NCBI GenBank assembly: GCA_946403625.1
Contig: CAMJAP010000003.1
Location: 1-64,000 of the forward strand
Direction: 5' to 3'
Length of the DNA stretch: 64,000 bases
Source of the DNA: an uncultured Lachnospiraceae bacterium
GTDB lineage: Bacteria > Bacillota > Clostridia > Lachnospirales > Lachnospiraceae
Below are positions 20,846 through 38,155 of the stretch, piece by piece; the first letter of the stretch is position 1, and every line of letters begins with the position of its first letter. A model generated the notes under the pieces. It was not told where the DNA came from, did no database searches, and saw only the letters and a list, made by a program, of their open reading frames with translations. The position numbers and the translations under genes were made by a program.

Positions 20846-20959
20846 ATCATACTGATCCGCAGGCTATTCCCAAAAGCCAAAAGCCATGATATACTTATAG
20901 TCGGGTATCTGTCTTATGTACATGAAGAGTTGCTCTTTGGAGTAAACGGGGGAAATGCT

Positions 20960-22828
20960 ATGGTTGGTAACCGAAAAGTAGCAGCATTGTGCACATCTCG
21001 TATCTATGATCTGCAAGTCTATGATTATATACTTTCACTGTGTGACCGGTTAAGAGAACAGGGATTTTTCCTGTGGATCTATTCCATCAATGAGGATCTG
21101 TATTGGGTTGAGGATCATATTCCTTCCGAAGCGGAGATTTTTTCCTATATCGACTATGAAAAAGCGGATATCGTGATCCTGATGGATGAAAAGATCAAGA
21201 ATCACACGATCGCAAGAAAGATCATCGAAGACGCAAAGGAACATGATAAGCCGGTGGTGGTGATCGACGGTGAGTATGAAGGCTGCAGCGATGTGCGTTT
21301 TGATTTTGCGGCAGGTTTTGAATCGGTGATGCGTCACGTGATGGAAAATCATGTGGTGAAGAATCCGCATTTTATGGGCGGATATAAAGATAATGTGTTT
21401 TCGGAAGAACGCAAGCAGATCTTCCGCAGGGTGATCGAAGAGTATGGGATCCCCTACGATGAAGAGCGTATGGTCTGCTACGGTGACTACTGGGCGATGC
21501 CGGCCAGAAGAGCGACGGAGGCGATCATCGCAAGCGGAGACATCCCGGATGCGCTCTTCTGCGCCAATGATTTTATGGCGATCAATGCCTGTGATGTCTT
21601 TAAACTGCATGGCTACCGTGTTCCGGAAGACGTGATCGTTACCGGTTTTGACGGCTATGACGAAGCCTATCTGAACACGCCGGGAATGACCACGGTGGAC
21701 TGCATCTTAAAAGAACTGGCCGAGATGACGGTGCAGGCGGTGGATTATTGTATGTCGGGGGGAGAGACGAAGGCGTTTCGCGTGATCCCCAAACTGATAC
21801 CCAACGAATCCTGCGGCTGTCCCCGTTGTTCCTACATCGGACGGGCATCCGTCAGTACCTTTAATGACCGGTTTTACCGTTATCAGGATGATGTGCGCCT
21901 AACCCATGACTGTGTGACCAAGATGATCATGTCGGGAACCTTATCCGAAGCGGTTTCCAATATGGATAACAAATATACGGATCATATGTGCTGCGTGGTA
22001 AAGTCGGAGTGTTTCCGCAAGGAGCGCAATTTCTTTACCGAGGAGCCCTGGGATTCGGCTTACAATCTGGTCTACGATCCCGAGTATTCGGACGGGGAGC
22101 GGATCGTGTTTGACAAACGGCAGGTGATGCCGGATCTGGAGGCACGAATGGACAGCGGCTATCCGCTGATCTTCCAGGGGCTGGACTATATGGACTGTAC
22201 GATGGGCTATGTCGTTTATTTCTATGACAGCTATAACGTGACGGATTATGCCAAGACCGCGACACTCACGGAAATGGTGAACCAGGGACTGGGCGGTTAT
22301 ATCAATATGCAGTACCAGCAATACCTGATGTCACGTATGAAAGAAATCTACAAGATCGATGCGCTGACGGGGCTGCACAATCGTCTGTCCTTTAGGGAGG
22401 CGTTTGAAGCGATACAAAACGACCCGGAGATGGAAGGAGCACCGCTTTTGGTATTTATGGCAGATCTGGATTATCTGAAACGGATCAACGACGGCCATGG
22501 ACATCAGGCGGGAGACCAGGCAATCGAAGCCGTGGCCAAAGCACTGCAGACAGCATGTCCGCCGGATGCACTGTGCGTAAGGTTTGGCGGAGACGAGATG
22601 CTGGCGTTTGTGCCGGGCGGCGGAGATGCGGAAGAGATTTTGGACTACATAACGCAACGGCTGGAAATGCGCAGCAGGGAACTGGGATTTCGAATCTCGG
22701 CAAGTTGCGGTTCGTATCTGACCACGATCAGCAAGGATATGGATCTGCAAAATGTGATCGGTATCGTGGATAAAAAAATATATGAAGTGAAAAAAGCCAG
22801 AAAAAACAATCATCAGGAGGTTTTATAA
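20960..22828 (+). CDS. LacI/GalR-type ligand-binding domain fused to GGDEF diguanylate cyclase domain
   Basis: FCANDFMAINACDVFKLHGYRVPEDVIVTGFDGYDEA (LacI-like); DALTGLHNRLSF.. FMADLDYLKRINDGHGHQAGD.. VRFGGDEM; GGGGGAAA RBS before ATG 20960. The longer ORF (20210) overlaps AraC antisense. Confidence 0.88.
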   Translation: MVGNRKVAALCTSRIYDLQVYDYILSLCDRLREQGFFLWIYSINEDLYWVEDHIPSEAEIFSYIDYEKADIVILMDEKIKNHTIARKIIEDAKEHDKPVVVIDGEYEGCSDVRFDFAAGFESVMRHVMENHVVKNPHFMGGYKDNVFSEERKQIFRRVIEEYGIPYDEERMVCYGDYWAMPARRATEAIIASGDIPDALFCANDFMAINACDVFKLHGYRVPEDVIVTGFDGYDEAYLNTPGMTTVDCILKELAEMTVQAVDYCMSGGETKAFRVIPKLIPNESCGCPRCSYIGRASVSTFNDRFYRYQDDVRLTHDCVTKMIMSGTLSEAVSNMDNKYTDHMCCVVKSECFRKERNFFTEEPWDSAYNLVYDPEYSDGERIVFDKRQVMPDLEARMDSGYPLIFQGLDYMDCTMGYVVYFYDSYNVTDYAKTATLTEMVNQGLGGYINMQYQQYLMSRMKEIYKIDALTGLHNRLSFREAFEAIQNDPEMEGAPLLVFMADLDYLKRINDGHGHQAGDQAIEAVAKALQTACPPDALCVRFGGDEMLAFVPGGGDAEEILDYITQRLEMRSRELGFRISASCGSYLTTISKDMDLQNVIGIVDKKIYEVKKARKNNHQEVL

Positions 22829-22830
22829 CA

Positions 22831-23868
22831 ATGGGTAAGTTTGAAGGGTTTCAGAAGGGTGTAAATCTCGGCGGCTGGATCTCTCAGTTCGCAAAATACG
22901 ACAAGGCACACTTTGACAGCTTTATCACCAAGAAGGACATCGAAAGCATCGCATCGGTCGGCTTTGATCATGTGCGTGTCCCGGTGGATTACAATGTGCT
23001 GGAGGACGAAGACGGCAATCCGATCGAGAGCGGTTTTGCTTACCTGGAGAACTGCCGTGCATGGTGCGAAGAGTTCGGGCTGAATATGCTGATCGACCTG
23101 CACGAGTGCTACGGATATTCCTTCGATCCGCTCAAGAAAGATATGGACCGTAAGGCATTCTTTTATGACGATGCTCTGCAGGCGCGTTTTATGAAACTGT
23201 GGAAAGAGATCGTAAAACGTTTTGCGGCATATCCGAAGCAGGTGGCATTTGAGCCGCTGAACGAAGTGGTACTTTACGAAGTGGCAGACGCCTGGAATTC
23301 AATTTTGACCAAGTACATCAAGATGGTACGCGAACTGGCACCGGAGAGCTATATCGTTGTCGGCGGTGTATGCTACAACAGTATTACGACGGTACATCTG
23401 CTGGATGTTCCTTTGGATGACAAGATCGTCTACAACTTCCACTGCTATGAGCCGATCATCTTTACGCACCAGGGCGCATACTGGGTGGACAAGATGCCGA
23501 CGGATTTCCGTGTGGGCTATCCGAAGACTTTGAAGGAATATCAGGAAGTAAGCAACAGCCTGGCAACGGATCTGGCCGGCGCGGTATTTACCGAGGGTAT
23601 CAGCGAGATCGGCGAAGGCTTCTATGAAGACCTGTTTGCACCGGCACTGGAGAAGGCAAAGAAAGACGGCATTCCTCTGTATTGCGGTGAGTACGGTGTG
23701 ATCGACCTGGCAGATCCGGAAGACCGTCTGCGCTGGATGAAGGACATCCACGGCGTATTCAACAAGTACGGCATCGGCCGCGCACTGTGGAACTACAAAG
23801 AAAAAGATTTCGGTATGGTGGACGACAGTTTCGCATCGATCCGCGACCGTTTTATGGAGATTTTGTAA
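22831..23868 (+). CDS. GH5-type cellulase/endoglucanase
   Basis: GVNLGGWISQF; GFDHVRVPVDYNVLEDE; VAFEPLNEVVL (acid/base Glu); YCGEYGV (nucleophile Glu). Confidence 0.92.
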   Translation: MGKFEGFQKGVNLGGWISQFAKYDKAHFDSFITKKDIESIASVGFDHVRVPVDYNVLEDEDGNPIESGFAYLENCRAWCEEFGLNMLIDLHECYGYSFDPLKKDMDRKAFFYDDALQARFMKLWKEIVKRFAAYPKQVAFEPLNEVVLYEVADAWNSILTKYIKMVRELAPESYIVVGGVCYNSITTVHLLDVPLDDKIVYNFHCYEPIIFTHQGAYWVDKMPTDFRVGYPKTLKEYQEVSNSLATDLAGAVFTEGISEIGEGFYEDLFAPALEKAKKDGIPLYCGEYGVIDLADPEDRLRWMKDIHGVFNKYGIGRALWNYKEKDFGMVDDSFASIRDRFMEIL

Positions 23869-23878
23869 AGGAGTTTAT

Positions 23879-26131
23879 ATGCGTCCAAATAAAAAAGACA
23901 CAGAAAAAAAGATCGAAGCTCTGTTGCAGGAACTGACCCTGGAAGAGAAATCGCGTCTGATCCATGCATCGGAATTTTTCCGCTCGGGCGATGTGCCGAG
24001 ACTGGGGATTCCCAAGATCACCATGTCGGACGGCCCGATGGGTGTGCGCAATGACTTTTATCCGGCCAAATGGCGTCCGGTCGGAACCACGGCGGATGCC
24101 GTAAGCTACCTGCCCTGCAACACGGCGATCGCATCGACCTGGAACCGTGAGCTGGCCTATGATTCCGGTCGTGTGCTGGGACGCGAGGCCAGAGGACGTG
24201 GTAAGGATATGATCCTGGCGCCGGGCATCAATATCAAGAGAAATCCCTTGTGCGGCAGAAACTTCGAGTATATGAGCGAGGATCCGTATCTGATCGCAGA
24301 GATGGTGGTACCGCTGATCGAAGGCATCGAGGAAAACGATGTCTCCGCATGCGTAAAGCATTTTGCCTGCAACGCCCAGGAATGGGAACGTCTGTGGGTG
24401 AATGTGGAACTGGACGAGCGTACCCTGCGTGAGATCTATCTGCCGGGCTTTGAAGCTGCAGTCAAGCGTGCAAAGACCAAAGCGCTGATGGGATCTTACA
24501 ACCTGGTGCGCGGCGAACACGGCAGTCAGAGCAAATTCCTGCTGACCGAGATCCTGCGTAAGGAATGGAAGTACGACGGACTGGTGGTTTCGGACTGGGG
24601 CGCGATCCACGATACCAAGGCAGCAGCCGAAAGCGGTCTGGATATCGAGATGAGCGTGTTCCCGAACTTTGACGAATATTTCCTGGCCAATCCGGTGATC
24701 GAAGCCGTGAAGAAGGGCGAGATCGCGGAAGCGGATCTGGATAAGAAGGTACGCAATATCCTGCGCTTTATGTTGCGGGTGCGCCTGATCGAGATCGAAA
24801 TGAAAGCGCAGAAAAACGGCAAGACCAGCGCGAAGGCTGTGCCGGTAGCCGATCGTGATCCGGGATATTTTAACGGTTCCGCGATGCATCTGTATGCAAA
24901 GAAGACCGCCAGAGAAGCGGTGGTTATGCTGAAGAACGAGAAGCACCGTCTGCCGATCAAACCGTCACAGACCAGGAAACTGCTGGTGATCGGTAACAAT
25001 GCGGATCGTTTGCAGTCCAACGGCGGCGGCAGCGGCGAGATCAAGGCGCTGTATGAAGTGACACCGATCATGGGACTCACACGCGAGTACGGCGGCAACA
25101 CCGAAGTGCGTTTCACACCGGGCTATTATGTACCGAGAAAGATCCGCCCGGAGGTGAGCTGGCAGGAAGACAGTGTATCGCCGGAAGTAATGCTGGATGC
25201 CGAGGATCGTGACAAACGCAAAAACAGTGCCAAAGAAAAAGAACTGATTAAGAAATATCGTGAGGAAGCCGTACGTCTGGCAAAGGAATATGACGAGGTT
25301 GTGATCGTCGGCGGTCTGGATCATGAATATGATACGGAAGGCTGTGATCGTAAAGATCTGAAACTGCCCTATCAGCAGGATGCACTGATCAATGCGGTGC
25401 TGGATGTAAATCCGCGGGCCGTAGTAGTGATGCTTGCCGGCAGTCCGGTGGATATGACGGCTTGGAGTGACCGCGCACAGGCGATCCTGTGGATGGCATA
25501 CAACGGTATGGAAGGCGGAACGGCGCTGGCCGAGGTGATCAGCGGTACCGTCAATCCGAGCGGCAAACTGCCGGAATCCCTGCCCTCCGATTTTAAGAAG
25601 ACATCGGCAGCAGTGCTCGGTGACTATCCGGGACGCAAGTTGACCGCGGCAGAGAAGAAGAAAATGAACGCAACTCTGACGCAGACGTTCCGGGACGGTG
25701 TCTTTGTCGGCTATCGTTTTTATGAGAAATATAATGTGCCGGTACAGTACGAATTCGGCTATGGCCTGTCCTATACGGAATACAAGTACAGCGGCATGAC
25801 GGTGGAGAAAGCAAACGGCAAGGATGCGCTCTTTACCGTATCCGTCAAGGTGAAGAATACCGGACATGTCACCGGAAAAGAAGCGGTGCAGCTTTATGTC
25901 GGTGAAAAGGTTGTGTCGGAAGATAACCCCATCAAGGAGCTGAAAGGCTTTGACAAAGTGGAACTGGAACCGGGCGAAGAAAAGACGGTGCGATTCACAC
26001 TGACCGCAAAAGACTTTTCACATTTCAGCAACGAAAGCAACACCTGGCAGCAGATGAAGGGCAGGATGGTCATCTATATCGGTGCCTCCAGTGCCGACAT
26101 TCGAGCCAAAAAAGAAGTCACATTGAAATAG
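23879..26131 (+). CDS. GH3 beta-glucosidase
   Basis: PKITMSDGPMGVR; VKHFACNAQE; GLVVSDWGAIHD; C-terminal fibronectin III-like domain. Confidence 0.95.
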   Translation: MRPNKKDTEKKIEALLQELTLEEKSRLIHASEFFRSGDVPRLGIPKITMSDGPMGVRNDFYPAKWRPVGTTADAVSYLPCNTAIASTWNRELAYDSGRVLGREARGRGKDMILAPGINIKRNPLCGRNFEYMSEDPYLIAEMVVPLIEGIEENDVSACVKHFACNAQEWERLWVNVELDERTLREIYLPGFEAAVKRAKTKALMGSYNLVRGEHGSQSKFLLTEILRKEWKYDGLVVSDWGAIHDTKAAAESGLDIEMSVFPNFDEYFLANPVIEAVKKGEIAEADLDKKVRNILRFMLRVRLIEIEMKAQKNGKTSAKAVPVADRDPGYFNGSAMHLYAKKTAREAVVMLKNEKHRLPIKPSQTRKLLVIGNNADRLQSNGGGSGEIKALYEVTPIMGLTREYGGNTEVRFTPGYYVPRKIRPEVSWQEDSVSPEVMLDAEDRDKRKNSAKEKELIKKYREEAVRLAKEYDEVVIVGGLDHEYDTEGCDRKDLKLPYQQDALINAVLDVNPRAVVVMLAGSPVDMTAWSDRAQAILWMAYNGMEGGTALAEVISGTVNPSGKLPESLPSDFKKTSAAVLGDYPGRKLTAAEKKKMNATLTQTFRDGVFVGYRFYEKYNVPVQYEFGYGLSYTEYKYSGMTVEKANGKDALFTVSVKVKNTGHVTGKEAVQLYVGEKVVSEDNPIKELKGFDKVELEPGEEKTVRFTLTAKDFSHFSNESNTWQQMKGRMVIYIGASSADIRAKKEVTLK

Positions 26132-26367: not shown

Positions 26368-26835
26368 ATGCACGATATTTCGGGAGGCATGATGGCGGAT
26401 CGGGCAGCTGGGAATCAAACGAAACAGAATCTGGATGACCGGTATTGCTTCCGTTATTTCATACCGATCACCCACAGTGCGGACAATGTGTTGGAACACA
26501 GACATTCGCATACTTTGGAGATCACGACCTATATCTGCCTGCTCTCCGGGTTCATTCAGGACGATATTCCCGGTGGCGTTCAGAACGGGGCGAAGAAAAG
26601 AAGCCTGGAGAAATTCGGTGAGATCGAAAAGTACGCATCGGCATTTTTGAAGCGGTACGAAGGTAAGTATCTGAATGCGATGGAAGAATTCGGCGGGGAT
26701 GCGAGTATTGAGCATGTGGGCGATGTGATCTATCAGGTGATGAGTGAATATCTGCTCAAGGAACAGTTGTTTCTGGAACGACTGGAGATCGGAGAAAATC
26801 CATTAAGAGTATATGTGGTATCAACTTATTTGTAG
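26368..26835 (+). CDS. 6-pyruvoyl-tetrahydropterin synthase (PTPS/QueD)-like protein, XrtG-locus type
   Basis: EHRHSHTLEITTYI resembles the HGH Zn-binding strand; C-terminal RLEIGENPLRVYVVSTYL resembles the PTPS end; no Cys at CxxxHxH. Confidence 0.55.
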   Translation: MHDISGGMMADRAAGNQTKQNLDDRYCFRYFIPITHSADNVLEHRHSHTLEITTYICLLSGFIQDDIPGGVQNGAKKRSLEKFGEIEKYASAFLKRYEGKYLNAMEEFGGDASIEHVGDVIYQVMSEYLLKEQLFLERLEIGENPLRVYVVSTYL

Positions 26836-27017
26836 TTTGTGCCGATATATATAAAATAGGGGACTGTCAAAAAGGAAGTTTCCGAGAGGGGGATTACAGA
26901 AAGAATATATGAGGGAGAGCGTATCCAGGGAAGGATGCGCGTGCTTGAGGGGGCACGATCCAAACAGACGTAAAAAGGCGGCTGTATGTGTGTGCAAAGG
27001 CATGATGAGGAGCATGG

Positions 27018-28739
27018 ATGCATATGAAGAGAAATGTAGTAGAAAAAACAGTCTTTAAGAAGTGCGCAAAAAAATGGCTGGCATTGCTTTCTGCAGTGCT
27101 GGCCTTTTCGGCTTATACACCTGCAGGCAGCTATGTATATGCGGCAGAAGAGCAGGAAGAAAGTGAGCATTCCGCAGAAGAATCCGAAGAAACAACAGAA
27201 AATACCGAAGCGCAGGAAACTTCCGGTGAAGGGCAGGATGCGGTTTCGGAAGAAACATCCGAAGCGAATTCTTCGGAGGAGTCTGCTTCCGAAGAGTCTT
27301 CCGATGCGGCAGCAGACGCGCAGACCAATGAAGACGAGGCTTCCGGATCCGCAGAGGATACGACGGCTTCGGATGCAGAGGAAATGGACGGGACGCAGGA
27401 AGGCGATGGGGAAACTCAGCCGGAAGAAGATGTGAATCCCGAAGAAACTATGGAAGAAGAGGGAACGGAAGAAGATCCTTTTGCGGATCCGAATGCGCTG
27501 GATCTGGACGGCCTGATGGAAAAAGAAGGAATGCAGGGCAAGGAGATCCAACTGGAAGAAGTTTCGGAAGAGGAAGAAGAATACGAAGAAGCCATCTATG
27601 ACGGTATTGTGATCGACGGAAAGTTTTCGGACTGGGACGGCGTGAGCAAGACGGATGCCGGCGGAACGAGCGACTATCAGGATTTTGTCGAAGCGGTAGC
27701 GGTATTCCAGGATGGCGATTATATCTATGTATATATCCGCGATACCGGGATCGGCGCGGCAGCGTGGTCCGGCCCGCATGGAAACGGACAGTATTCGCTG
27801 GTAACGGATCTGGGCTATTCGGTATTGTTCCAGTTACACGCAACGGATAACGGATCCCATGTGAGCATCTCCGGGGTGAACGGAGCGGAGTGTGCATATT
27901 ATACCAAGGGCTGGGGCTATAGCGGCGAGTGGGAGATCTCGATCCCGGTTTCGGAATTGCCGTACAGTCGCGGAAGCTTTGCTTTCGGTTATTATCAGGC
28001 TGATCCGTTTATCGGTGAAGTAGCAGACCAGCGGGAAAAGGACGAAACCACCGGCAATACCACCGGCGAAGGCAGCGACGGACAGGATGAGGAACTGATC
28101 ATTTTTGACGGAATGTACGGGGACTGGAGTTCCTATCCGCACACACTGATCCACTATGCGACCTCCGGTACCTGGGAAAAATATGTGGACGGCGAAGGCG
28201 CGCTGTACACGGCAGGCAACAATCTGTACGGCCATGTGGTAACCCGCATGGGTGCGCACCTGACCGAGCATGGCGAGGAGATGCAGTACGGTGTGGTATT
28301 GCGCATCAATCAGGATAATAATCTGTGGTTCGAATTCCGTCTGATCGATGTGGATGCGAACGGCAGGATTAACTGGAATGTAAATGTGGCAGATCAGGAG
28401 AACGGTACGCACGAGTATTATATCGTGGATACCAGAGGCTGGTCGAATGCTGCAACGCTGGAAGATATCACCCAGGGCAATAACATCTACGGGCGTATGC
28501 GCATTACCAAGGGCGATATCTCCGATGAAGCAGAGTGGAAACTGGATCTGGGACTGATCGCGGAGCACTTCGGTTTGGAGGAGACCGATCTGCAGGTGCT
28601 CGAAGTAAGATATGAAAGGATCGGAGACAAGTGGCTGCAGACGGCAGGCGCTTCGACCGGACCGGTGGCAGGTATCCTGCTCAGCATGGCGGCAGCGGGC
28701 TCCGTTATGGTGCTGCAGCGTCGCAAAAAGGTGAACTGA
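27018..28739 (+). CDS. Secreted acidic protein with two CBM9/DOMON-like segments and a C-terminal Firmicu-CTERM-like sorting tail
   Basis: Signal peptide to AYA; about 140-aa Glu/Ser/Thr-rich region; IDGKFSDWDGV and FDGMYGDWSSY segments; C-terminus GPVAGILLSMAAAGSVMVLQRRKKVN. Confidence 0.75.
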   Translation: MHMKRNVVEKTVFKKCAKKWLALLSAVLAFSAYTPAGSYVYAAEEQEESEHSAEESEETTENTEAQETSGEGQDAVSEETSEANSSEESASEESSDAAADAQTNEDEASGSAEDTTASDAEEMDGTQEGDGETQPEEDVNPEETMEEEGTEEDPFADPNALDLDGLMEKEGMQGKEIQLEEVSEEEEEYEEAIYDGIVIDGKFSDWDGVSKTDAGGTSDYQDFVEAVAVFQDGDYIYVYIRDTGIGAAAWSGPHGNGQYSLVTDLGYSVLFQLHATDNGSHVSISGVNGAECAYYTKGWGYSGEWEISIPVSELPYSRGSFAFGYYQADPFIGEVADQREKDETTGNTTGEGSDGQDEELIIFDGMYGDWSSYPHTLIHYATSGTWEKYVDGEGALYTAGNNLYGHVVTRMGAHLTEHGEEMQYGVVLRINQDNNLWFEFRLIDVDANGRINWNVNVADQENGTHEYYIVDTRGWSNAATLEDITQGNNIYGRMRITKGDISDEAEWKLDLGLIAEHFGLEETDLQVLEVRYERIGDKWLQTAGASTGPVAGILLSMAAAGSVMVLQRRKKVN

Positions 28740-28740
28740 T

Positions 28741-29328
28741 ATGCTGTGGCTGATCGGCATATTAGCGACGGCAGTATGGCTGTACGTACTGCGCGTCATG
28801 GGCAAGGCGAAGCTTCCCGCCTGGCGTTTTTTCTGGGGCGGAGCAGGGCTTTTTATTCTCATGATGGTTTTTGTACGCCCGGTACTCACACAGCCCCTGG
28901 CGCAGGGAGTGTCTGCTCTGGCAGGCTTCTTCGGCAGGGCGACCGGCACGTTTACGCCGTATTTCAAGTATGGCACGATCTTTGTATATACTCCGGTCGG
29001 AGCGATGACACTGCAGATCGATATGGAATGCTCCGGTATTCTGGAGATCATGGCATTCATGTCCCTGCTGGTCTTTTTCGATGTATATAATCTGCAGGAA
29101 AAGATCCTGGTATCGCTGCTCGGCATTTTTTACATCCTGGTCGCCAATGCGATGCGTATCATCCTGATCTGCGAGATCATCCATATGGGCGGCAGCGGAT
29201 ATTATTTTATGGCACATACCTACATCGGTCGTATTTTCTTCTATGTGCTTTCGGTACTGTTGTATTTCTATGTATTTACCAAACCGCATATCATCAAGAT
29301 GCGTGTCGGCAATTTCAAGTATGATTAA
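28741..29328 (+). CDS. xrtG: Exosortase family protein, XrtG-like
   Basis: Multi-TM 195-aa protein; ECSGILE (Cys97), NAMRII (Arg139), AHTYIGR (His159) match the exosortase Cys/Arg/His pattern; adjacent to a CTERM protein. Confidence 0.8.
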   Translation: MLWLIGILATAVWLYVLRVMGKAKLPAWRFFWGGAGLFILMMVFVRPVLTQPLAQGVSALAGFFGRATGTFTPYFKYGTIFVYTPVGAMTLQIDMECSGILEIMAFMSLLVFFDVYNLQEKILVSLLGIFYILVANAMRIILICEIIHMGGSGYYFMAHTYIGRIFFYVLSVLLYFYVFTKPHIIKMRVGNFKYD

Positions 29329-29331
29329 GAG

Positions 29332-30714
29332 GTGCGGAATATGCTGAATCGATTTTTACATTCTTTCATATTCTGGGGCGCATGGATCATTATTCCGGTC
29401 CTGATGGAAACCGTACCGGCGATCGGCGGTTTCTTTCTGTTGCTGTTCCGCAGAGCCAAGGCGGGCAAAAAGATCGTTAAGCCCAAGGTATATCCCGAGA
29501 TCTCCATCATCATTCCGGTCTACAATTCCGCGCAGACTTTGTATAACTGTATCCGGTCCATCAAGATCAGTACCTATGATTCCAGCAAGATCCGCATCTT
29601 TCTGGTCAATAACCAGGGCAAGGATAACAGTTTCGAGATCTTTCAGCGGTGCCAGCTGGCATTCCCGGAACTGCATATGCAGTGGCTGAATGCGCAGCAG
29701 GGCAAATCGCGTGCCCTCAATCTGGCGCTTTACAACAGTGAAGGAAAATACATCATCAATCTGGACAGCGACGGTATCCTGGAGCCACACGCATTGCAGA
29801 ACCTGGTGGATAAGTTTGAGAACCGGCAGGACTTAAACTGTATGACCGGTGCGGTATTGATCGAGCCCAGACTGATCGATCAGTACGAGCATTTCTTCCC
29901 GCGACTGCTGCGGGAACTGGAGTTTATGGAATATGCCCAGGCGTTTCTGGCCGGCCGCAGTTATGCATCGGAGCTGAACAAAGTATATACGCTGTCCGGT
30001 GCGTTTTCGGCATTCCGTAAATCCGCGATCCTCAAATCCCGTATGTACAATACCAACACGATCTGCGAGGATACCCACATCACTTTCCAGATGCGCTACC
30101 TGCAGAAAGAACGCGTGGAGATCTGCGAGAACGCTTTGTTCTATGTGGATCCGATCGAGGGCATCAACAAACTGTATACGCAGAGACAGCGCTGGCAGCG
30201 AGGCAGTCTGGAAGTAGCCAAGCAGTTTTTGAATAAGAAGAACGATTTCGGCCGCAGTTTTCTGGACGTCAATGTGCACACGCTTTTGTACGATCACACC
30301 TTTGCGTTCCCGCGTGCCATCTGGTATCTGGCCCTTTTGTGTCTGCTGTTTATGAACTATTCGTCCAAGATGATCATCCTGTCCACGGCATTCATCTTCC
30401 TGACGTATATCATTGTCGGGTTTATGTATTTCGGAACGGTGTTGTATTTCTTCCGGGAGTTTCCGGATCTGAAGAGCTACTACGCCGGACACTGGTGGGT
30501 GGTCATACTGTTGCCGTTCTTTAATTTTGCGGTATTCTTTATCCGCCTGGCAGGTATTGTAAACAGTATCGGAACGGACAGTGCCTGGAAGACACGCAAC
30601 CTGACCGAAGAAGGACAGGCATTTGCGGCGGTGGTGAAAGACGATCTTTCCAAACCGGCCGACTGGCTGCGGCAGTTACGGGAATGGGTGAACAAACCGG
30701 AGGAGGCTGAGTAA
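29332..30714 (+). CDS. GT2 family glycosyltransferase, XrtG-associated type
   Basis: ISIIIPVYNSAQTLYNCIRSI; YIINLDSDGIL; RQRWQRGSLEV (Q..RW); C-terminal TMs. Confidence 0.85.
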   Translation: MRNMLNRFLHSFIFWGAWIIIPVLMETVPAIGGFFLLLFRRAKAGKKIVKPKVYPEISIIIPVYNSAQTLYNCIRSIKISTYDSSKIRIFLVNNQGKDNSFEIFQRCQLAFPELHMQWLNAQQGKSRALNLALYNSEGKYIINLDSDGILEPHALQNLVDKFENRQDLNCMTGAVLIEPRLIDQYEHFFPRLLRELEFMEYAQAFLAGRSYASELNKVYTLSGAFSAFRKSAILKSRMYNTNTICEDTHITFQMRYLQKERVEICENALFYVDPIEGINKLYTQRQRWQRGSLEVAKQFLNKKNDFGRSFLDVNVHTLLYDHTFAFPRAIWYLALLCLLFMNYSSKMIILSTAFIFLTYIIVGFMYFGTVLYFFREFPDLKSYYAGHWWVVILLPFFNFAVFFIRLAGIVNSIGTDSAWKTRNLTEEGQAFAAVVKDDLSKPADWLRQLREWVNKPEEAE

Positions 30715-30722
30715 CAGAGCGT

Positions 30723-31805
30723 ATGAAAGATTGGATCAGAAAACATTATTTTGCGACCGTAGCGGTGATCGCCTGTCTGATCGGACTGGTGTTGCTGTTT
30801 ATGTTCTGGCGGTTTATGGATCAATATGAAGAAGGCGTTCTGGAAGTCTGTGCGGAGGGACAGGATGCCTATGTACAGCTGGTGCTGGATCAGATCTATA
30901 TCCGCGATAACCGTTCGGATGCTTCGATCATCAAAGACATCCTGGGCAGTCTGGATGCGTCCACGAACAAGTACTGGACCTTCTCCAAAGAGGAAACCAT
31001 GCTCTTTGTAAAGGATGTTTCGGAAACCAATAAGTACAAGGGCTTTACCACGGCAACCTATTACATTTCCGAGAGTGCTTCGGAGTTTTTGAAAAATCTG
31101 CGGCTCAATTCCGTAACCCACGGCCGTATCACGATCGAGGATCGCAAGTATGTGGCCAGCGGTGTGATCTTTGAATACAACAATGCGGAATATCGTTTGT
31201 GCCTGCTGTCCAACGAAGAAGTTTTCCTGGATAACAACGCATTCCTCGGCGGCCGCATCAACATTTCCCTTTGCTATGCACTGGCGATCACGGTACTGGT
31301 AGTCGGCGCGATGCTCTTTGCACACCGCATCGGACGGCTGCGTGCAGAGATCGTCGATAAGGATGCGATGATGGTGGAACTGAATGCCAGCGTTGCCAAA
31401 CTGAACGAAAAACTGCTGGTCAAATCCACCTACGATATGCGCCGGACATTGTTCCAGGAAAGTATGCTGTATGATTTTCTGGATCGTATCGTACGCAAAA
31501 ATGTATGGCCCATTTCTTTTGCACTGATGAACTGCGCGAATGAAGGAACTTTTCTGGAACAGGCGCAGCTGGTGCTGGACCGCAGTGTATTGCGATTCCG
31601 GCTCACCGGTGATCAGGCCTATACGAATGCGGCGGTTTCCGGACAGATCCTGTTGGTATTTTTGAACTGTGACCAGAGGAAGGCGTTTACCTATCTGCGA
31701 CCGCTCTTAAATGTTTCCGTAACGGTTCGGACCGTGGAAGAATGGCAGCCGGATCGGGGAGACATTCACAAGTTTTTGGAAGATATGAGGAGTAAGAATC
31801 AATGA
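30723..31805 (+). CDS. Two-TM membrane protein with extracellular sensor-like region and possible degenerate GGDEF domain
   Basis: TM at about 10-30 and 180-200, coiled coil, C-terminal alpha/beta region. Confidence 0.6.
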   Translation: MKDWIRKHYFATVAVIACLIGLVLLFMFWRFMDQYEEGVLEVCAEGQDAYVQLVLDQIYIRDNRSDASIIKDILGSLDASTNKYWTFSKEETMLFVKDVSETNKYKGFTTATYYISESASEFLKNLRLNSVTHGRITIEDRKYVASGVIFEYNNAEYRLCLLSNEEVFLDNNAFLGGRINISLCYALAITVLVVGAMLFAHRIGRLRAEIVDKDAMMVELNASVAKLNEKLLVKSTYDMRRTLFQESMLYDFLDRIVRKNVWPISFALMNCANEGTFLEQAQLVLDRSVLRFRLTGDQAYTNAAVSGQILLVFLNCDQRKAFTYLRPLLNVSVTVRTVEEWQPDRGDIHKFLEDMRSKNQ

Positions 31806-32281
31806 AAAATCTGGAAAACCGGCTCTTTCATGAATACCGCCTGAAGTTCTACTTAAACGGCAATCATTATCTGATGTTTGATAATACCCGTGGGGAAACG
31901 CATCCGCACACCTGGGAATTTACGCTCAATATCCTGGTGGGACGGGAGACCTTTGTGGAGTTCAATCAATACGAGCGCACCATCGAACAGCTGCTAGCGC
32001 CGTATCAGAACAAAGTGCTCAACGAAGTGGATCCCTTTGATGCCATCGTTCCGACCCTGGAAAACCTGGTGGAGTATTTCGGCATCCGGGCACAGGAACT
32101 GGTGAAAGCCATCGGCGGGCGTGTGCTTTCGATCGAAGGCAGCGAGACACCGACCCGCAGCTATGTCATCAATTTCAACGATGCTTTTGACAGTTTTGAA
32201 ATGGAAGCCTATACCGAAGAAGTAAAACGCAGTGTGATCGATGCAGTACTGGATGATATCTTGGAGGATATTAAGAGTTGA
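31802..32281 (+). CDS. 6-pyruvoyl-tetrahydropterin synthase-like protein
   Basis: NHYLMFDN.. HPHTWEFTLNI.. SIEGSETPTRSYVINF resembles PTPS His motifs and ETPT strand; Cys of CxxxHxH absent. Confidence 0.65.
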   Translation: MKNLENRLFHEYRLKFYLNGNHYLMFDNTRGETHPHTWEFTLNILVGRETFVEFNQYERTIEQLLAPYQNKVLNEVDPFDAIVPTLENLVEYFGIRAQELVKAIGGRVLSIEGSETPTRSYVINFNDAFDSFEMEAYTEEVKRSVIDAVLDDILEDIKS

Positions 32282-34755
32282 AAACGGCGCTTAAAAAAAT
32301 CTGGCCGTTATTGGTAGTGGCGGGTTACGGAGTGCTTGCATGGATCCTGATGCAGGTGATCTCGCGCAGCGGACTTTATCCGGCCGGCGCGGATGTGATG
32401 ACACATCTGTACAAGGCGGATCTGATCCTGCGCAGTGCAAAAGCCGGCGATCTGTTCCCCGCATACGATCCGATGTGGTACAACGGTGTGGAAGTGCTTC
32501 GTTTCTGGGCACCGCTTTCTTACTATGTGCTGGCGCTGTGCGAGGGGCTGGCATCGGGCAATCCCTTCGGCGGATATATCCTGTTCTGCGGTCTGGTTTT
32601 TTGGGCAGGTGCGGTTTCGTTCTTTTTCGTGGCATGCAAAAAAGATATGGCACTTCCCGGAGCGTTTCTTGCACCGGTATGGATGCTGCTGCCGGGCAAT
32701 CTGCTGTTGTTCTACGGAGAAGGCAATCTGGCGAGAGCCTTCGGTCTGGTGCTGCTGCCGTGGCTTTTGTATATCCTGGAAAAATACCTGCAGGAAGGAA
32801 AGAAACGGCAGTTGTTGCTCGCGGCAGTGCTGCTGTTCACGCTCATCTTTACCGATCACGATCTGTCGGTGATGACATCCGTTGCATTCACACTGTACCT
32901 GATCGTCTATGCAAAGTTAAACGGCGGATGGATCCGTCTGGCGCAGGTGGTGCTTATGATGCTGGGGATCTTTTTGCTGACGGGCCTGTGGCTGCTGCCG
33001 TATCTGTGCGGACGGCAGATCCCGACGGACCTGGCCGAAACCATGTCGGATGCCTTTTACAGCGGTTTTCAATCCCTCAATCCGTTTGTGCGCAAGGAAG
33101 TGGATCTGTATCTTCCGTACTTCGGACTGGCGGCGTTTCTGGCCCTGCTCTTCGGACTGTTGTGCTCGGACCGCAGGAGCATTCCGGCCTTTGCCGTCGG
33201 ACTGTTATTGTTCTTTGCGACCACGCGCAGTGCTTATCAGGTGTTAAAGATCTTTTCGGGAAACCATTATCTGCATATGCTGCAGTATGTACCGGTCGCC
33301 ATGTGTCTTTTGATCTACGGAATGCTCTCGTGGAAACGTTGCAAATGGCAGGTACGTGCAACGGTCTGCATATTGTTGTTCCTGGATTGTCTGCCGTCCT
33401 TTCCGTTGTTTGCCGGCGATATGGATCACGATCCGGCGGAACGCCGTTTTGCGGCAGAGGAAAAGGAACTGCTTTTGGATACCGCCAAGCAGATCACGGT
33501 ACAGAGACTGGCCTTTCTGGACCTGGGGGATCTGGCATCGGACGGCAGCTGGATGGTGAATGTTTATGATGTGCCCCTGGCGGGCAGTTACGGATCGGAC
33601 ATTACCTGTGCGGCAACGACCTACAATATCACGCAGCTGGACCGTGCGTATGCCGGCGGAAACTTTAAGTATCTCTTCGACCGCATCCTGGAACTGGGCA
33701 ATGACAGTGTGCTGCTGCAGATGAAGCACGTGGACTGGAACGAAGAGGCCATCTCCGAACTGGATGCGGCGGCAGCACTGTCCGGGTATCATCTGGCGGA
33801 TGCCAACGAACGGTATCGTCTGTATCATAGGGATGTGCGCGGGGCGTTCGGTTTGGTGAGTAAGTTCGGTGCCATCGGCATCGGCAGCGGTGCGGGGCAG
33901 ATCTCGCTGGATTTCCCGACGGTAGAGGAAGTGACCTCGACCAATATCAACGATTATACTTATGAAGAACTCTCGCAGTACCAGACCGTATACCTGAACG
34001 GCTTTACCTATACGGATAAGGTTGCGGCGGAAGCAATGCTCTTAAAACTGGCGCAGAACGGTACCCGTATCGTATTGCTGGCCGACGGTATCCCGCAGGA
34101 TCCCGATACCAAGGCAAGAGAGTTTTTGGGCGTACATTCGCAGGAAGTGGTCTTTTCCAACGGCTATCCGGAACTGATCACCGAAAATTACGGGATCATC
34201 AATACGGATCTGTTTGCGGCAGGGCATGCACAGTGGCGTACAGTATATGTGACCGGTCTCAACAAAGTGCTGGGCTATACGGAAGAAGACAATATTGAAC
34301 TGCCGTTTTACGGAACGGTGCGGGATCCGAACATCTATGTGCTGGCGATCAACCTGACTTATCATTATGCACTGACCAAGGATCCGTCCCTGGAAGACCT
34401 GCTGTATGAGATCTTCTGTATGGAGATCGGAGAGATGCCGGATCGTCGTCTGGTGGATGTGGATGTGGAGTACGGAAAGGACAGCATTACGATCCGTACG
34501 GATGCCGACGATGTGGATACCACCTTGTCCGTACCGGGCAGTTTCGTGCTGCCGGAAGGCGCAAGAGAGCGTAACCGTCTGCTGCATGTGGATGCCGGCG
34601 AGACGGTGATCACCTTCGGACGACCGTATTTTGCAGGCGGCCTGGCGATGACGATCGGCGGTGTGATCCTGCTGCTTCTGACTTTTGTATTCGGAGCAAA
34701 GGCGGATCGAAAATGGAGACAGTATCAGGAAGAGAAAGAGGGGGCGAAGGCGTGA
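32278..34755 (+). CDS. Large membrane protein, 6-pyruvoyl-tetrahydropterin synthase-related (PTPS_related) type
   Basis: Many TMs; GADVMTHLYKADLILRSAKAGDLFPAYDPMWYNGVEVLRFWAPLSYYVLAL pattern; extracytoplasmic C-terminal domain and final TM. Confidence 0.75.
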   Translation: MKTALKKIWPLLVVAGYGVLAWILMQVISRSGLYPAGADVMTHLYKADLILRSAKAGDLFPAYDPMWYNGVEVLRFWAPLSYYVLALCEGLASGNPFGGYILFCGLVFWAGAVSFFFVACKKDMALPGAFLAPVWMLLPGNLLLFYGEGNLARAFGLVLLPWLLYILEKYLQEGKKRQLLLAAVLLFTLIFTDHDLSVMTSVAFTLYLIVYAKLNGGWIRLAQVVLMMLGIFLLTGLWLLPYLCGRQIPTDLAETMSDAFYSGFQSLNPFVRKEVDLYLPYFGLAAFLALLFGLLCSDRRSIPAFAVGLLLFFATTRSAYQVLKIFSGNHYLHMLQYVPVAMCLLIYGMLSWKRCKWQVRATVCILLFLDCLPSFPLFAGDMDHDPAERRFAAEEKELLLDTAKQITVQRLAFLDLGDLASDGSWMVNVYDVPLAGSYGSDITCAATTYNITQLDRAYAGGNFKYLFDRILELGNDSVLLQMKHVDWNEEAISELDAAAALSGYHLADANERYRLYHRDVRGAFGLVSKFGAIGIGSGAGQISLDFPTVEEVTSTNINDYTYEELSQYQTVYLNGFTYTDKVAAEAMLLKLAQNGTRIVLLADGIPQDPDTKAREFLGVHSQEVVFSNGYPELITENYGIINTDLFAAGHAQWRTVYVTGLNKVLGYTEEDNIELPFYGTVRDPNIYVLAINLTYHYALTKDPSLEDLLYEIFCMEIGEMPDRRLVDVDVEYGKDSITIRTDADDVDTTLSVPGSFVLPEGARERNRLLHVDAGETVITFGRPYFAGGLAMTIGGVILLLLTFVFGAKADRKWRQYQEEKEGAKA

Positions 34756-36929
34756 AGCAAAAGCGTTTTGCCAAAAGCATATCAGCAGTGCTCACCGGTG
34801 TGTTCCTGGCGGGATGCAGTGCGCCCTGGATGGTGCCGGAGGAGAGCGGTAATGCGGACCTGATCCCGGGACCGGTACAGGCGATCGATCACGATACACA
34901 GACCGGTGTGGATTATGCGTTCCGCTGCGGAGAGCAGTATCTGGAGATTTATGACGGCGAGAAATTTCAGCCGGTCTATCTGAACGGTGTGAATATCGGA
35001 TCGGGTTATCCCGGGTATTTTCCGGGAGAACTGGCAATCCCGGAAGAGACCTATTTGCGCTGGTTTCAGGAGATCTCGGAGATGAATTGCAATACGATCC
35101 GTATCTACACGACCATGATGCCTTCGTTCTACAATGCGTTTTACAGTTACAACTATACGGCGGATGCGGATCACAAACTGTATCTGTTGATGGGCGTCTG
35201 GTATGATGAGGATCAGATGGAAGCAACGGGAGATGCCTACGATCTGCTGGAAGGCGCGATCGGAGAAGCGCGGGAACAGATCGACATCATCCACGGAAAC
35301 GGTGAGATCGAAGAACGGCCCGGCAGAGCCTACGGCGTTTACACCAAAGATATCTCAGAATATGTACTGGGGTGGATCCTGGGGATCGAGTCGGATGCCT
35401 ATCTGGTGGGGACCACCAATGAGCTGCACCCGGATATCACGGGGTATGACGGAGAGTACCTGTATACGCAGGGGGAAGAGATTCAGGCCTTTGATGCGTT
35501 TTTGTGCGAACTCGGCGACGAGGTGATCGCTTATGAGACCAAACAGTACGGGATGCAACGGCCGGTCAGCTGGACCAACTGGCCAACGGCAGATGCCCTG
35601 TCCCATCCGTCCGAACCGGCACCGGACAAAGAAGATGCCGTGACGATCAATGTGGAACGTTTCAAGACCAAAGCCAATTTTGCGCCGGGGATCTTTGCTT
35701 CCTATCATGTCTATCCGTATTATCCGGATTTTATGTATCTGGATGTTTCTTACAATACCTATCAGGATAAGGATGGAGTGATCAATACGTATGAGGCGTA
35801 TTTAAAAGACCTGCGTGCGATCCACAACGTACCGGTACTGGTTGCGGAATTCGGTGTGCCGTCCTCACGCGGCTGTACGCACATCAATCCCTATACCGGC
35901 CTGGATCAGGGACATCATACCGAAAAGGAGCAGGGCTGGTGTCTGGATGCGATGGCAAGGGATATCTATAATAATGGCTATGCCGGCGGGCTGGTCTTTG
36001 CATGGCAGGATGAGTGGTTTAAGCGTACATGGAACACCATGGATTATACCGACCCGGACCGCAGGGCATTCTGGAACGATCTGCAGACCAGCGAGCAGAA
36101 TTTCGGCCTGGTGGAATTTATCCCCGGGGACGGCAGCCGGCAACTGGACGGAGATCTTTCGGAATGGGAAGACAGTGAGCTGATCGCGGAAGAAAACGGA
36201 CTCCGGCTCTATGCGGCAACGGATGCCAGATATCTGTGGCTGGCAGTGGAATCGGACAGCTGTGATCTGCAAAAAGAGCAGGTGCTGATCCCCTTTGATA
36301 TCACGCCGATGTCCGGAGCGCTGCATTATGAGAATAACGAGTTTGAGCGCCCGGTGGATTTTGTGGCGGATCTGAACGGACCGGAAGAAGGCAGTGTGAA
36401 CCGTCTGCTGGTGCATCAATACTATGACCGCTATGCCTTCTTTTATCAAAAGTACGATAATGTGCTGGATGTGACCGGCTACGATGATCCGCAGAACGAG
36501 ACCTTCGGACCGATCCTGCTTTCACTCAACAAAGCCTTTACCCAGCCGGAAACCGGGGAAACCTTCGATGCACTCAAATATGACACCGGTGAATTGCGCT
36601 GCGGTATGGGCGTGCCGGATACGGAATCGTATGATTCGCTGGCGGATCTGTGTTACGGGGAGAACTGCCTGGAACTGCGTCTGCCGTGGGAGATCCTCAA
36701 TTTCCGCGACCCGAGTACCAAAGAGATCGAGGACGATTTCTGGCAGAGAGGCGAATTGTGCGGCAGGGATATTTCGGAAATCTGGTTTGGGGTTAAGTGT
36801 GGAAAAGATCAGATAAATATGGTATCATACACCTGGGCTGACTGGGATCATGTGGAATTTACGGAGCGACGCAAGGATTCGTACTGGATCCTGCAGGGCT
36901 GTTTCGGAGAACTCAGTCTGGCGGAATAA
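34752..36929 (+). CDS. Glycoside-hydrolase-like lipoprotein with C-terminal CBM9-like domain
   Basis: GTG 34752 overlaps previous stop; lipobox FLAGC; TIM-barrel-like LNGVNIGSGYPG..NTIRIYT..VAEFGVPSSRG; LDGDLSEWEDSEL CBM9-like. Confidence 0.7.
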   Translation: MKQKRFAKSISAVLTGVFLAGCSAPWMVPEESGNADLIPGPVQAIDHDTQTGVDYAFRCGEQYLEIYDGEKFQPVYLNGVNIGSGYPGYFPGELAIPEETYLRWFQEISEMNCNTIRIYTTMMPSFYNAFYSYNYTADADHKLYLLMGVWYDEDQMEATGDAYDLLEGAIGEAREQIDIIHGNGEIEERPGRAYGVYTKDISEYVLGWILGIESDAYLVGTTNELHPDITGYDGEYLYTQGEEIQAFDAFLCELGDEVIAYETKQYGMQRPVSWTNWPTADALSHPSEPAPDKEDAVTINVERFKTKANFAPGIFASYHVYPYYPDFMYLDVSYNTYQDKDGVINTYEAYLKDLRAIHNVPVLVAEFGVPSSRGCTHINPYTGLDQGHHTEKEQGWCLDAMARDIYNNGYAGGLVFAWQDEWFKRTWNTMDYTDPDRRAFWNDLQTSEQNFGLVEFIPGDGSRQLDGDLSEWEDSELIAEENGLRLYAATDARYLWLAVESDSCDLQKEQVLIPFDITPMSGALHYENNEFERPVDFVADLNGPEEGSVNRLLVHQYYDRYAFFYQKYDNVLDVTGYDDPQNETFGPILLSLNKAFTQPETGETFDALKYDTGELRCGMGVPDTESYDSLADLCYGENCLELRLPWEILNFRDPSTKEIEDDFWQRGELCGRDISEIWFGVKCGKDQINMVSYTWADWDHVEFTERRKDSYWILQGCFGELSLAE

Positions 36930-36965
36930 TGTTTGGAACAGTTTGGTTTTCGGAGGGGGAAAACT

Positions 36966-38117
36966 ATGGATAACATACAGGTGAGCGGAGACGCACCAAA
37001 GGAGAAGTCTGCGCTTCAGACATACGGAACGATCATTGCGTTATTGGCAGCGCTGGTCGTATTGTTGGTAGGTGCCGCATTTTTGATCACGAACTTCCCG
37101 AAGAGTATGGGATCGCCGATGGATCGCGGTTTGCGGTGTTTGCAGGATAAGGAATATACGCAGGCGGTTGCGGCGTTTCGGGAAGCCATACAGCAGAATC
37201 CGCAAAATGTAAAGGCGTATGAAGGCATTGTATCTGCCTATGAAGGGCAGGGGGATGAGATCGCCGCACTGCATATGCTGGAGAAAGGGTATGAAAAAAC
37301 CGGTGATGAAACACTGGGGAGCCGGATGGAGGCGATGCGGGACTCTATGGGACCGATCATTACCGGCAGCAGTGCCACACCGGATCCGGACAGTCCGGTA
37401 GGAGAGGGCGAGACGGCCAGACAGCGGCAGGTGGCTCTTTTGCAAGAGGCGTATGAGCTGCTTTCCAAGAAAGACTATGACGGAATGTGCAGTGTGGACG
37501 GATCCGATGAGGCAGATCTGGTGATCTCGGAACTGCGGGGCGACCATGTGATCTATATCCCGGAGGACGGTAATCACGGTACCGGCACCGGCTGCGGGGT
37601 ATATCAGGTGAGCGGCGGTTATTTCTTCTACTATGGCGATTTCGTGGACGGTGAACGGCTGGGACACGGTGTATCCTACTGGTATAACGGCAGCGGCTAT
37701 GAGATCTACGACGGTGAGTGGAAAAATGATAAGCCGAACGGCTACGGTACTTCGTCGTTGGTATATTTCTACGGTGATGAGGAACACCGTACGGGTAATT
37801 TTGTAGACGGTCTGGAAGACGGCGATTTTGTGATCGAAAAGAAGGACGGCTACAGCAATACGGTTCTGACCGGCGAGTATTCGGTAGTATACGGCCGGCC
37901 GACGGAAGCAACGGAGCGTCTGGAAGAGATCGTTCAGGAAGTGGAAGCCAAGGAGGCCGCGGGGGAACCCGTGGGTCAGATGCTGCAGGGGCTGTACAAT
38001 GCTTACGATAATGCACAGACCTATTTGGATGAGACGATCTATCTGATCTTTGATGATTATACTTATATGACATATTACCGATACGGAGATCTGCTCGGCG
38101 CTTTGGGTTATCGATAA
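36966..38117 (+). CDS. Membrane-anchored TPR + MORN-repeat protein
   Basis: One TM; GLRCLQDKEYTQAVAAFREAIQQNPQNVKAYEGI TPR; YYGDFVDGERLGHGVSYW / YDGEWKNDKPNGYGTS / TGNFVDGLEDGDF MORN units. Confidence 0.75.
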   Translation: MDNIQVSGDAPKEKSALQTYGTIIALLAALVVLLVGAAFLITNFPKSMGSPMDRGLRCLQDKEYTQAVAAFREAIQQNPQNVKAYEGIVSAYEGQGDEIAALHMLEKGYEKTGDETLGSRMEAMRDSMGPIITGSSATPDPDSPVGEGETARQRQVALLQEAYELLSKKDYDGMCSVDGSDEADLVISELRGDHVIYIPEDGNHGTGTGCGVYQVSGGYFFYYGDFVDGERLGHGVSYWYNGSGYEIYDGEWKNDKPNGYGTSSLVYFYGDEEHRTGNFVDGLEDGDFVIEKKDGYSNTVLTGEYSVVYGRPTEATERLEEIVQEVEAKEAAGEPVGQMLQGLYNAYDNAQTYLDETIYLIFDDYTYMTYYRYGDLLGALGYR

Positions 38118-38126
38118 AAGTCACGG

Positions 38127-38155
38127 ACTCCGGTGGTTTTACCGGAGTTTTTTTT
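38127..38155 (+). terminator. Intrinsic terminator at end of the XrtG-like locus
   Basis: ACTCCGGTggttttACCGGAGT followed by T8. Confidence 0.75.

Follow-up and report, generated by a model that had tools for sequence, protein, structure and literature searches.

Exosortases of the XrtA type belong to family PF09721, carry Cys, Arg and His residues and process substrates that end in a motif, a transmembrane (TM) helix and a basic tail. For the PEP-CTERM/EpsH (XrtA) systems of Gram-negative bacteria, exopolysaccharide genes are described near the exosortase (PMC1569441). XrtG systems, which are annotated too in [Eubacterium] eligens, Lactococcus lactis pBV60 and Aneurinibacillus, appear in the open-access literature that we searched as a comparative-genomics pattern without a defined function, and a single paper in this literature mentions XrtG, reporting that its genes are over-expressed in aggregating L. 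plantarum. In Listeria monocytogenes, the pssA-E genes (lmo0527-0531) encode a processive family 2 glycosyltransferase (GT2) related to IcaA and BcsA that is controlled by a degenerate-GGDEF membrane protein; the same source treats PssD as orthologous to BcsB and assigns an RxxD I-site to PssE (PMC4125290). The gtsA-gtsB-pdeB genes of Lactobacillus acidophilus, together with dgcA-pdeA, comprise a GT2 like BcsA/PgaC and a non-catalytic c-di-GMP-binding protein, and DgcA raises exopolysaccharide (PMC6123363). With their degenerate GGDEF or EAL receptors, we count both precedents in favor of the c-di-GMP-linked reading developed below.

We found a genuine and complete XrtG/Firmicu-CTERM operon of a gut/rumen-type Lachnospiraceae at positions 26368-38117 of the window, the whole 64-kb stretch of DNA that was analyzed. 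The XrtG family is already known, and the present operon is a clostridial variant of it. We consider it probable that this variant forms a synthase-dependent exopolysaccharide operon tied to c-di-GMP and equipped with a surface protein that the exosortase processes, comparable in function to Listeria Pss. An earlier note on this DNA had proposed a complete locus of nine genes closed by a terminator, and this holds: all nine open reading frames (ORFs) are present and co-directional on the plus strand, neighboring ORFs from 27018 to 38117 are spaced by -43 to +8 bp, a 182-bp gap lies between the first gene and the CTERM gene, and a strong intrinsic terminator with an 11-bp stem and a T run follows on the same strand at 38125-38150. 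Profile matches over curated cut-offs complete this picture. Operon synteny is shared with 11 further genomes of the genus, so that the gene order is not due to chance, and of 35 genomes examined within the genus, the 12 that have TIGR03110 are precisely those that have TIGR03112 (Fisher p=1.2e-9).

Computational searches identified the core genes. The Firmicu-CTERM surface protein (27018-28739; TIGR04145 111.7 bits, cut-off 50) and the XrtG exosortase (28741-29328; TIGR03110 172.8 bits, cut-off 102.75; PF09721) were both correctly named in the earlier note, as were the XrtG-associated GT2 (29332-30714; TIGR03111 588.5 bits, cut-off 363.95) and the PTPS_related multi-pass membrane protein (32278-34755; PF10131 369 bits, cut-off 26.4). 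The latter is probably a GT-C type glycosyltransferase, an assignment that we take from established family knowledge. Its gene is followed by a lipoprotein gene (34713-36929), whose product is a candidate glycosidase-like TIM barrel with a weak GH113 resemblance and a C-terminal domain with a DGxxxxW start; it has no significant Pfam, NCBIfam or PDB sequence match, and its type recurs beside XrtG loci L017, L021-L023, L054, L064, L073, L077 and L082. The last gene encodes an accessory TM protein with TPR and MORN repeats (36933-38117; PF02493 and TPR families), which is syntenic solely in the closest relatives, L021-L023.

From these components we infer the following mechanism. The GT2 would polymerize and extrude a beta-linked polymer, to which the PTPS_related GT-C protein would probably add side sugars on the outside. 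After export, the C-terminal helix would hold the CTERM protein, XrtG (C97/R139/H159) would process it at GASTGP, and its processed domains could then stay at the surface beside the synthase or be joined to a cell-surface acceptor. The earlier note had proposed that the locus builds and anchors a glycan-modified surface protein or a protein-linked polysaccharide; a covalent bond between protein and glycan of this sort is hypothetical. Inside the cell, the degenerate-GGDEF protein p5 (30723-31805) and a PTPS-like domain would couple signals to synthase activity, the signal most likely being c-di-GMP from cyclases like that of the upstream gene.

The gene for p5 had been described as encoding a membrane sensor-like protein; the sensor part stands, with an sCache-like extracellular domain and a coiled coil, while a degenerate GGDEF domain had been missed. 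Curated profile searches gave no direct family match for this protein. Its C-terminus nevertheless aligned in register with GGDEF (hhalign, P=4e-4, versus at least 0.05 for other families), and its AF2 model (pLDDT 83) matched WalK and a phytochrome-DGC in Foldseek. Homologs at the same operon position match PF00990 with 60 bits in Clostridium ljungdahlii and 38 bits in a Clostridiaceae MAG, and the Desulfosporosinus homolog combines a GGDEF domain (81 bits) with an HD-GYP-type HD domain (130 bits). Throughout Lachnospiraceae, p5 is without the GGDEF signature and the I-site Arg; the Arg of RxxD is missing at its position in the window-type p5 and also in L057, L061 and L062, which led us to reject a PssE-like role for p5, with direct binding at an I-site. 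Binding of c-di-GMP by p5 is putative and, given these losses, may have disappeared.

Upstream on the plus strand lies a gene for a probable diguanylate cyclase (20210-22828) with a periplasmic-binding-protein-like domain (PF13377) and a GGDEF domain (PF00990, 94.6 bits), in which the GGDE signature is kept as FGGDEM. The 5' part of this ORF overlaps an opposite-strand ORF, and its true start is probably further downstream than the listed one. It is followed by glycosidase genes of families GH5 (22831-23868; PF00150, 110 bits) and GH3 (23879-26131; PF00933, PF01915). Counterparts of the cyclase and GH5 genes lie upstream of the operon in the sister loci L021 and L023, and the GH3 gene is syntenic in eight sister loci. 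These linked genes (20210-26131) were absent from the earlier note, as was the c-di-GMP connection. GGDEF matches number 55 in the genome that the window belongs to, which makes a nearby cyclase gene weak evidence there, and the 64-kb window contains no c-di-GMP riboswitch at the gathering threshold.

Comparison with relatives indicates that XrtG operons may be run by c-di-GMP. Genes for diguanylate cyclases (DGC) and/or EAL proteins occur within the XrtG clusters of Lactococcus, Enterococcus, Leuconostoc and others, and XrtG loci of Lactobacillales are linked to them at operon and genome level: DGC/EAL genes lie within 4 kb of the GT2 gene in 10 cases versus 1 outside (p=0.0007) and within 6 kb in 11 versus 0 (p=0.003). 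In an even sample of this order, GGDEF was present in 11/11 XrtG-positive versus 37/60 XrtG-negative genomes (p=0.009). All these counts treat related species as independent, and GGDEF is common in XrtG-negative genomes as well. The genomes of Enterococcus gallinarum and Leuconostoc falkenbergense each contain a single GGDEF gene and a single EAL gene, both inside the XrtG operon, and are without PilZ. For the lineage of the window itself, the case for c-di-GMP is less strong: outside Lactobacillales, the surroundings of the GT2 gene show no enrichment of GGDEF/EAL genes (p=0.97 and 0.90), and around Clostridia XrtG loci there is no local enrichment either.

It is conceivable, if on balance doubtful, that the Lachnospiraceae locus works without c-di-GMP control, p5 being a former GGDEF protein whose sCache domain senses an extracellular ligand and transfers the signal mechanically. 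The lineage-wide loss of the GGDEF signature and I-site Arg and the missing local enrichment speak for this, as does the replacement of the GGDEF part by a PTPS domain on the same sensor type in L041, L060, L065, L092 and L096. However, the closest recognizable p5 relatives are GGDEF or GGDEF-HD-GYP proteins in the same operon position, and the loss of the I-site leaves other binding modes possible.

The operon also encodes the two PTPS-like proteins that the earlier note had listed. The second (PTPS2, 31802-32281) clearly matches TIGR03112 (118.2 bits, cut-off 69.35). The first (PTPS1, 26368-26835; PF01242, 25.2) falls just below it at 68.1 bits, with no match for the N-terminal 36 model positions; its orthologs at the same position reach the cut-off in seven sister genomes, and in an eighth only if in-frame neighbors are counted. 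PTPS2 is a T-fold protein with an intact zinc triad (H22/H34/H36) plus E87 and E115, for which a PDB sequence search gave nothing useful, as was the case for the PTPS_related protein. Over 116 PTPS sequences, H22 is conserved in 111, H34 in 109, H36 in 111, E87 in 116 and E115 in 102, while the segment that precedes the HxH zinc motif contains a Cys in just one. A catalytic 6-pyruvoyl/6-carboxy-tetrahydropterin synthase (QueD/PTPS) was accordingly rejected, since the catalytic Cys is missing although zinc His and pocket Glu are present.

Very tentatively, and with little expectation that it will hold, we suggest that the PTPS-like T-fold of XrtG systems could be a receptor of a new type, one that binds c-di-GMP (a guanine nucleotide) and thereby switches the synthase. 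Several observations motivate this idea: a pterin/guanine-type pocket is kept despite the lost Cys, and the domain is fused either to the GT-C enzyme (L042, L044, L048, L049, L057, L061, L062 and others) or to the p5-type sensor in place of GGDEF. In E. gallinarum and L. falkenbergense, moreover, the only DGC and PDE lie in the XrtG operon and neither PilZ nor a c-di-GMP-I riboswitch was detected. All four pocket residues are lost in Lentilactobacillus laojiaonis, a species without GGDEF, EAL or PilZ genes. The paralogous or related loci L118, L148 and L152, which are without PTPS, argue against an obligatory receptor role.

It is unlikely that the operon forms no free exopolysaccharide and instead serves protein glycosylation and anchoring, with GT2 and GT-C decorating the CTERM protein and XrtG attaching the glycoprotein to the envelope. 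Nearly every locus does have a single dedicated CTERM gene adjoining xrtG and the GT2 gene, and the window's CTERM protein, which comprises a signal peptide, a long, acidic, Ser/Thr-rich linker, the CTERM-associated domain in duplicate, the GASTGP motif, a TM helix and a basic tail (QRRKKVN), could carry glycans on that linker. Many CTERM partners, however, are just 215-260 aa long and have no linker, and the CTERM domain lies inside the GT-C protein in L042 and inside XrtG in L043/L044/L046/L047, so that it appears to act as a module of a complex rather than as cargo. The GT2 itself has the invariant DxD, ED and QRxRW motifs of processive synthases, and its strongest named-function model is of the PgaC/IcaA type, with weak matches to cellulose and hyaluronan synthases. 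Together with PDB profile matches, this makes it a predicted processive polysaccharide synthase and favors exopolysaccharide synthesis over the glycosylation of proteins. The AF2 model of the CTERM protein (pLDDT 83.5) had no significant match in the PDB (best E 0.0096); a known carbohydrate-binding fold, hinted at by a CBM9-like DGxxxDW start, gained no support, as there was no Pfam match either, and glycan binding by this domain is a guess.

The proposed exopolysaccharide operon further includes a predicted proteolysis or transpeptidation of the CTERM protein by XrtG. The catalytic candidates C97, R139 and H159, already singled out in the earlier note, are conserved in 90, 97 and 96 of 97 aligned XrtG sequences, respectively. 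In a Syntrophomonadaceae-type clade, where CTERM is fused to the XrtG N-terminus, Asn or Ser takes the place of Cys and no sorting motif is left, while Arg and His are kept. Such fusions do not always bring Cys loss, as L065, L091 and L096 retain both Cys and motif; in the fusions, retention of the XrtG Cys goes with retention of the GxSTGP motif of CTERM, and loss with loss, which is consistent with the predicted cleavage. That XrtG is mainly a structural synthase subunit with dispensable cleavage, its catalysis only releasing or positioning the CTERM domain in some lineages, is quite improbable: the Cys-less fusions and L. laojiaonis, which keeps a Cys-less XrtG although no CTERM gene is detectable and whose GT2 and GT-C genes are still open, would fit, but the Cys in 90/97 sequences and the three motif-keeping fusions place catalysis under selection in most lineages, and the Lentilactobacillus locus may merely be decaying.

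Exopolysaccharide synthesis controlled by c-di-GMP would give the poorly understood XrtG systems a testable function, accessible in hosts that are safe and easy to work with, such as Lactococcus lactis and Lactiplantibacillus plantarum. The natural fusions that lose Cys and sorting motif together point to the target of the exosortase; they further suggest, as the end product of the exosortase, a surface domain that is kept next to the synthase. The PTPS domain, a pseudo-enzyme that recurs in these systems, is a specific candidate for a nucleotide-sensing module not recognized so far.

Compared with XrtA systems, the operon shares the PF09721 Cys/Arg/His residues, a substrate with motif, TM helix and basic tail, and predicted exopolysaccharide genes nearby; it differs in the shorter exosortase (about 195 aa), the usually single dedicated substrate per locus and the motif GxSTGP. 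Like L. acidophilus GtsAB/PdeB, it would be a GT2 exopolysaccharide system with a c-di-GMP receptor, but the L. acidophilus receptor is a degenerate EAL protein, and exosortase, CTERM and PTPS are absent from the description of that system (PMC6123363). Listeria Pss likewise combines a processive GT2 and a degenerate-GGDEF membrane protein in one operon, a likeness based on p5 fold, profile and positional homologs, whereas PssE has the RxxD that p5 is without, PTPS is absent from the Pss description (PMC4125290), and no BcsB family match to a PssD-like protein was found among the window's operon proteins at E<=1. The closest agreement is with the XrtG/Firmicu-CTERM system, as TIGR03110, TIGR03111, TIGR03112 and TIGR04145 are all adjacent, with one copy of each over cut-off. 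In contrast to Lactobacillales XrtG loci, which have a TIGR03766 GT-C, the present operon has a PF10131 GT-C, and to the known XrtG systems it adds a degenerate-GGDEF sensor, a second PTPS, and glycosidase-like and TPR/MORN genes.

All nine genes of the exosortase locus proposed in the earlier note are present where it placed them, and its identification of the locus proved real and correct. A profile search for XrtG-locus families with curated NCBIfam and Pfam models identifies the core: the Firmicu-CTERM surface protein (27018-28739; TIGR04145, 111.7 bits, cut-off 50), the exosortase XrtG (28741-29328; TIGR03110, 172.8 bits, cut-off 102.75), its associated glycosyltransferase GT2 (29332-30714; TIGR03111, 588.5 bits, cut-off 363.95), the second PTPS-related protein (31802-32281; TIGR03112, 118.2 bits, cut-off 69.35) and the PTPS_related protein (32278-34755; PF10131, 369 bits). 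The upstream PTPS gene (26368-26835) scores 68.1 bits, slightly below the TIGR03112 cut-off; seven of its orthologs in sister genomes reach or exceed it, and an eighth does so only if in-frame neighbours are counted. A terminator with an 11-pair stem (38125-38150) closes the gene block. All the sequence tests that could be applied place the locus in the XrtG kind.

The gene order was found again in 11 other genomes of the same genus, where TIGR03110 and TIGR03112 occur in an identical set of genomes (12 of 35, p=1.2e-9). Many of these sister loci carry the GH3 gene (23879-26131) upstream, and the closest relatives also carry the GGDEF and GH5 (22831-23868) genes. The listed GGDEF reading frame (20210-22828) probably starts too far upstream; its 5' end overlaps an opposite-strand frame (19874-20845), and the first Pfam domain in the frame does not begin before residue 332.

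In Lactobacillales, GGDEF or EAL genes lie within or adjoin 8 of 23 XrtG clusters, with Pfam in agreement, and they crowd around GT2 (10 within 4 kb versus one further out, p=0.0007). Lactococcus lactis plasmid pBV60 has the order diguanylate cyclase, EAL, CTERM, xrtG, GT2, PTPS and TIGR03766 glycosyltransferase, and catalytic motifs are intact in the EAL proteins of loci L039, L072, L105 and L107. The genomes of E. gallinarum and Leuconostoc falkenbergense each hold a single GGDEF gene and a single EAL gene, which lie together in the XrtG operon, and no PilZ; a c-di-GMP-I riboswitch was not found in the latter, nor among the 150 of 277 candidates scored in the former. Across an even Lactobacillales sample, GGDEF occurs in 11/11 XrtG-positive versus 37/60 XrtG-negative genomes (p=0.009). 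Lentilactobacillus laojiaonis (1.2 Mb) lacks GGDEF, EAL and PilZ genes altogether; in its XrtG operon (L121) the exosortase Cys is replaced by His and the His by Asn, the PTPS pocket is lost and no CTERM was found, while the GT2 and GT-C frames are still open. A Lactobacillales-like EAL-GGDEF-XrtG-GT2-PTPS-GT-CTERM cluster in a record titled Candidatus Methanovirga, an archaeon (L095), is probably a mis-binned contig.

Clostridia XrtG loci show no GGDEF/EAL enrichment beside GT2, and here the proposed c-di-GMP link rests on the membrane sensor gene p5 (30723-31805). This gene has no direct match among NCBIfam and Pfam models. Its positional homologs match PF00990 in Clostridium ljungdahlii (60 bits), a Clostridiaceae MAG (38 bits) and Desulfosporosinus (81 bits), the last with HD-GYP-type HD domains too (130 bits). 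In hhalign, the window-type family matches GGDEF in register at its C-terminus (P=4e-4), against P values no better than 0.05 for five other domain families. The AF2 model (pLDDT 83) predicts the alternating alpha/beta order expected for GGDEF, and its Foldseek matches include WalK sensor and phytochrome-diguanylate-cyclase structures. Because the GGDEF signature and the I-site Arg are both absent, cyclase activity is very unlikely. The sensor is fused to PTPS in L041, L060, L065, L092 and L096. The window genome, a Lachnospiraceae genome of 3.5 Mb, has 55 GGDEF-domain matches, an unusually large c-di-GMP repertoire.

The PTPS domain itself retains its zinc ligands and two glutamates (n=116), and the catalytic Cys is missing in 115 of the 116 sequences; hence this is no ordinary pterin synthase, and we infer a ligand-binding role. 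Fusions of the domain with PTPS_related occur in L042, L044, L048, L049, L057, L058 and L061-L063. Three Lactobacillales operons (L118, L148, L152) lack PTPS, with no such gene lying between their GT2 and TIGR03766 glycosyltransferase genes, and two of these genomes hold a second XrtG locus.

Among 97 aligned exosortases, a few from duplicate contigs, Cys97 is conserved in 90, Arg139 in 97 and His159 in 96. In the CTERM substrates the tail reads G[AT]S[ST]G[PA], followed by a hydrophobic helix and then basic residues. Natural fusions connect exosortase and substrate. The XrtG N-terminus is fused to a CTERM domain in L043 (identical to L119), L044, L046 and L047, and the N-terminal domain of the 400-aa XrtG of L131 resembles that of such fusions; in all of these Asn or Ser stands in place of the Cys, and there is no STGP motif. 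The fusions in L065, L091 and L096, where the CTERM helix is the first XrtG helix, retain both, and L045, which has a separate CTERM gene and shares its family with L044, keeps the Cys. Cys and motif thus go together, which indirectly supports XrtG acting on the STGP motif, and the fusions show that a CTERM domain permanently tethered to XrtG is an accepted end state. In L042, CTERM is instead fused to the C-terminus of PTPS-PTPS_related. Several lactobacilli (L111, L118, L126, L128, L148) carry tandem CTERM genes upstream of a single xrtG, so more than one substrate per exosortase is possible.

The XrtG kind is already known; a search of a collection of open-access papers found none connecting XrtG with c-di-GMP. 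On the comparative evidence, c-di-GMP-linked exopolysaccharide synthesis is the leading hypothesis, with a strong case in Lactobacillales and a moderate one in the window's own lineage. Membership of the Pss systems is not supported, since the locus has neither a BcsB homolog nor an I-site. Its predicted mode of action resembles that of Pss in Listeria (PMC4125290) and that of Gts in L. acidophilus (PMC6123363), with a GT2 synthase combined with a degenerate second-messenger protein.
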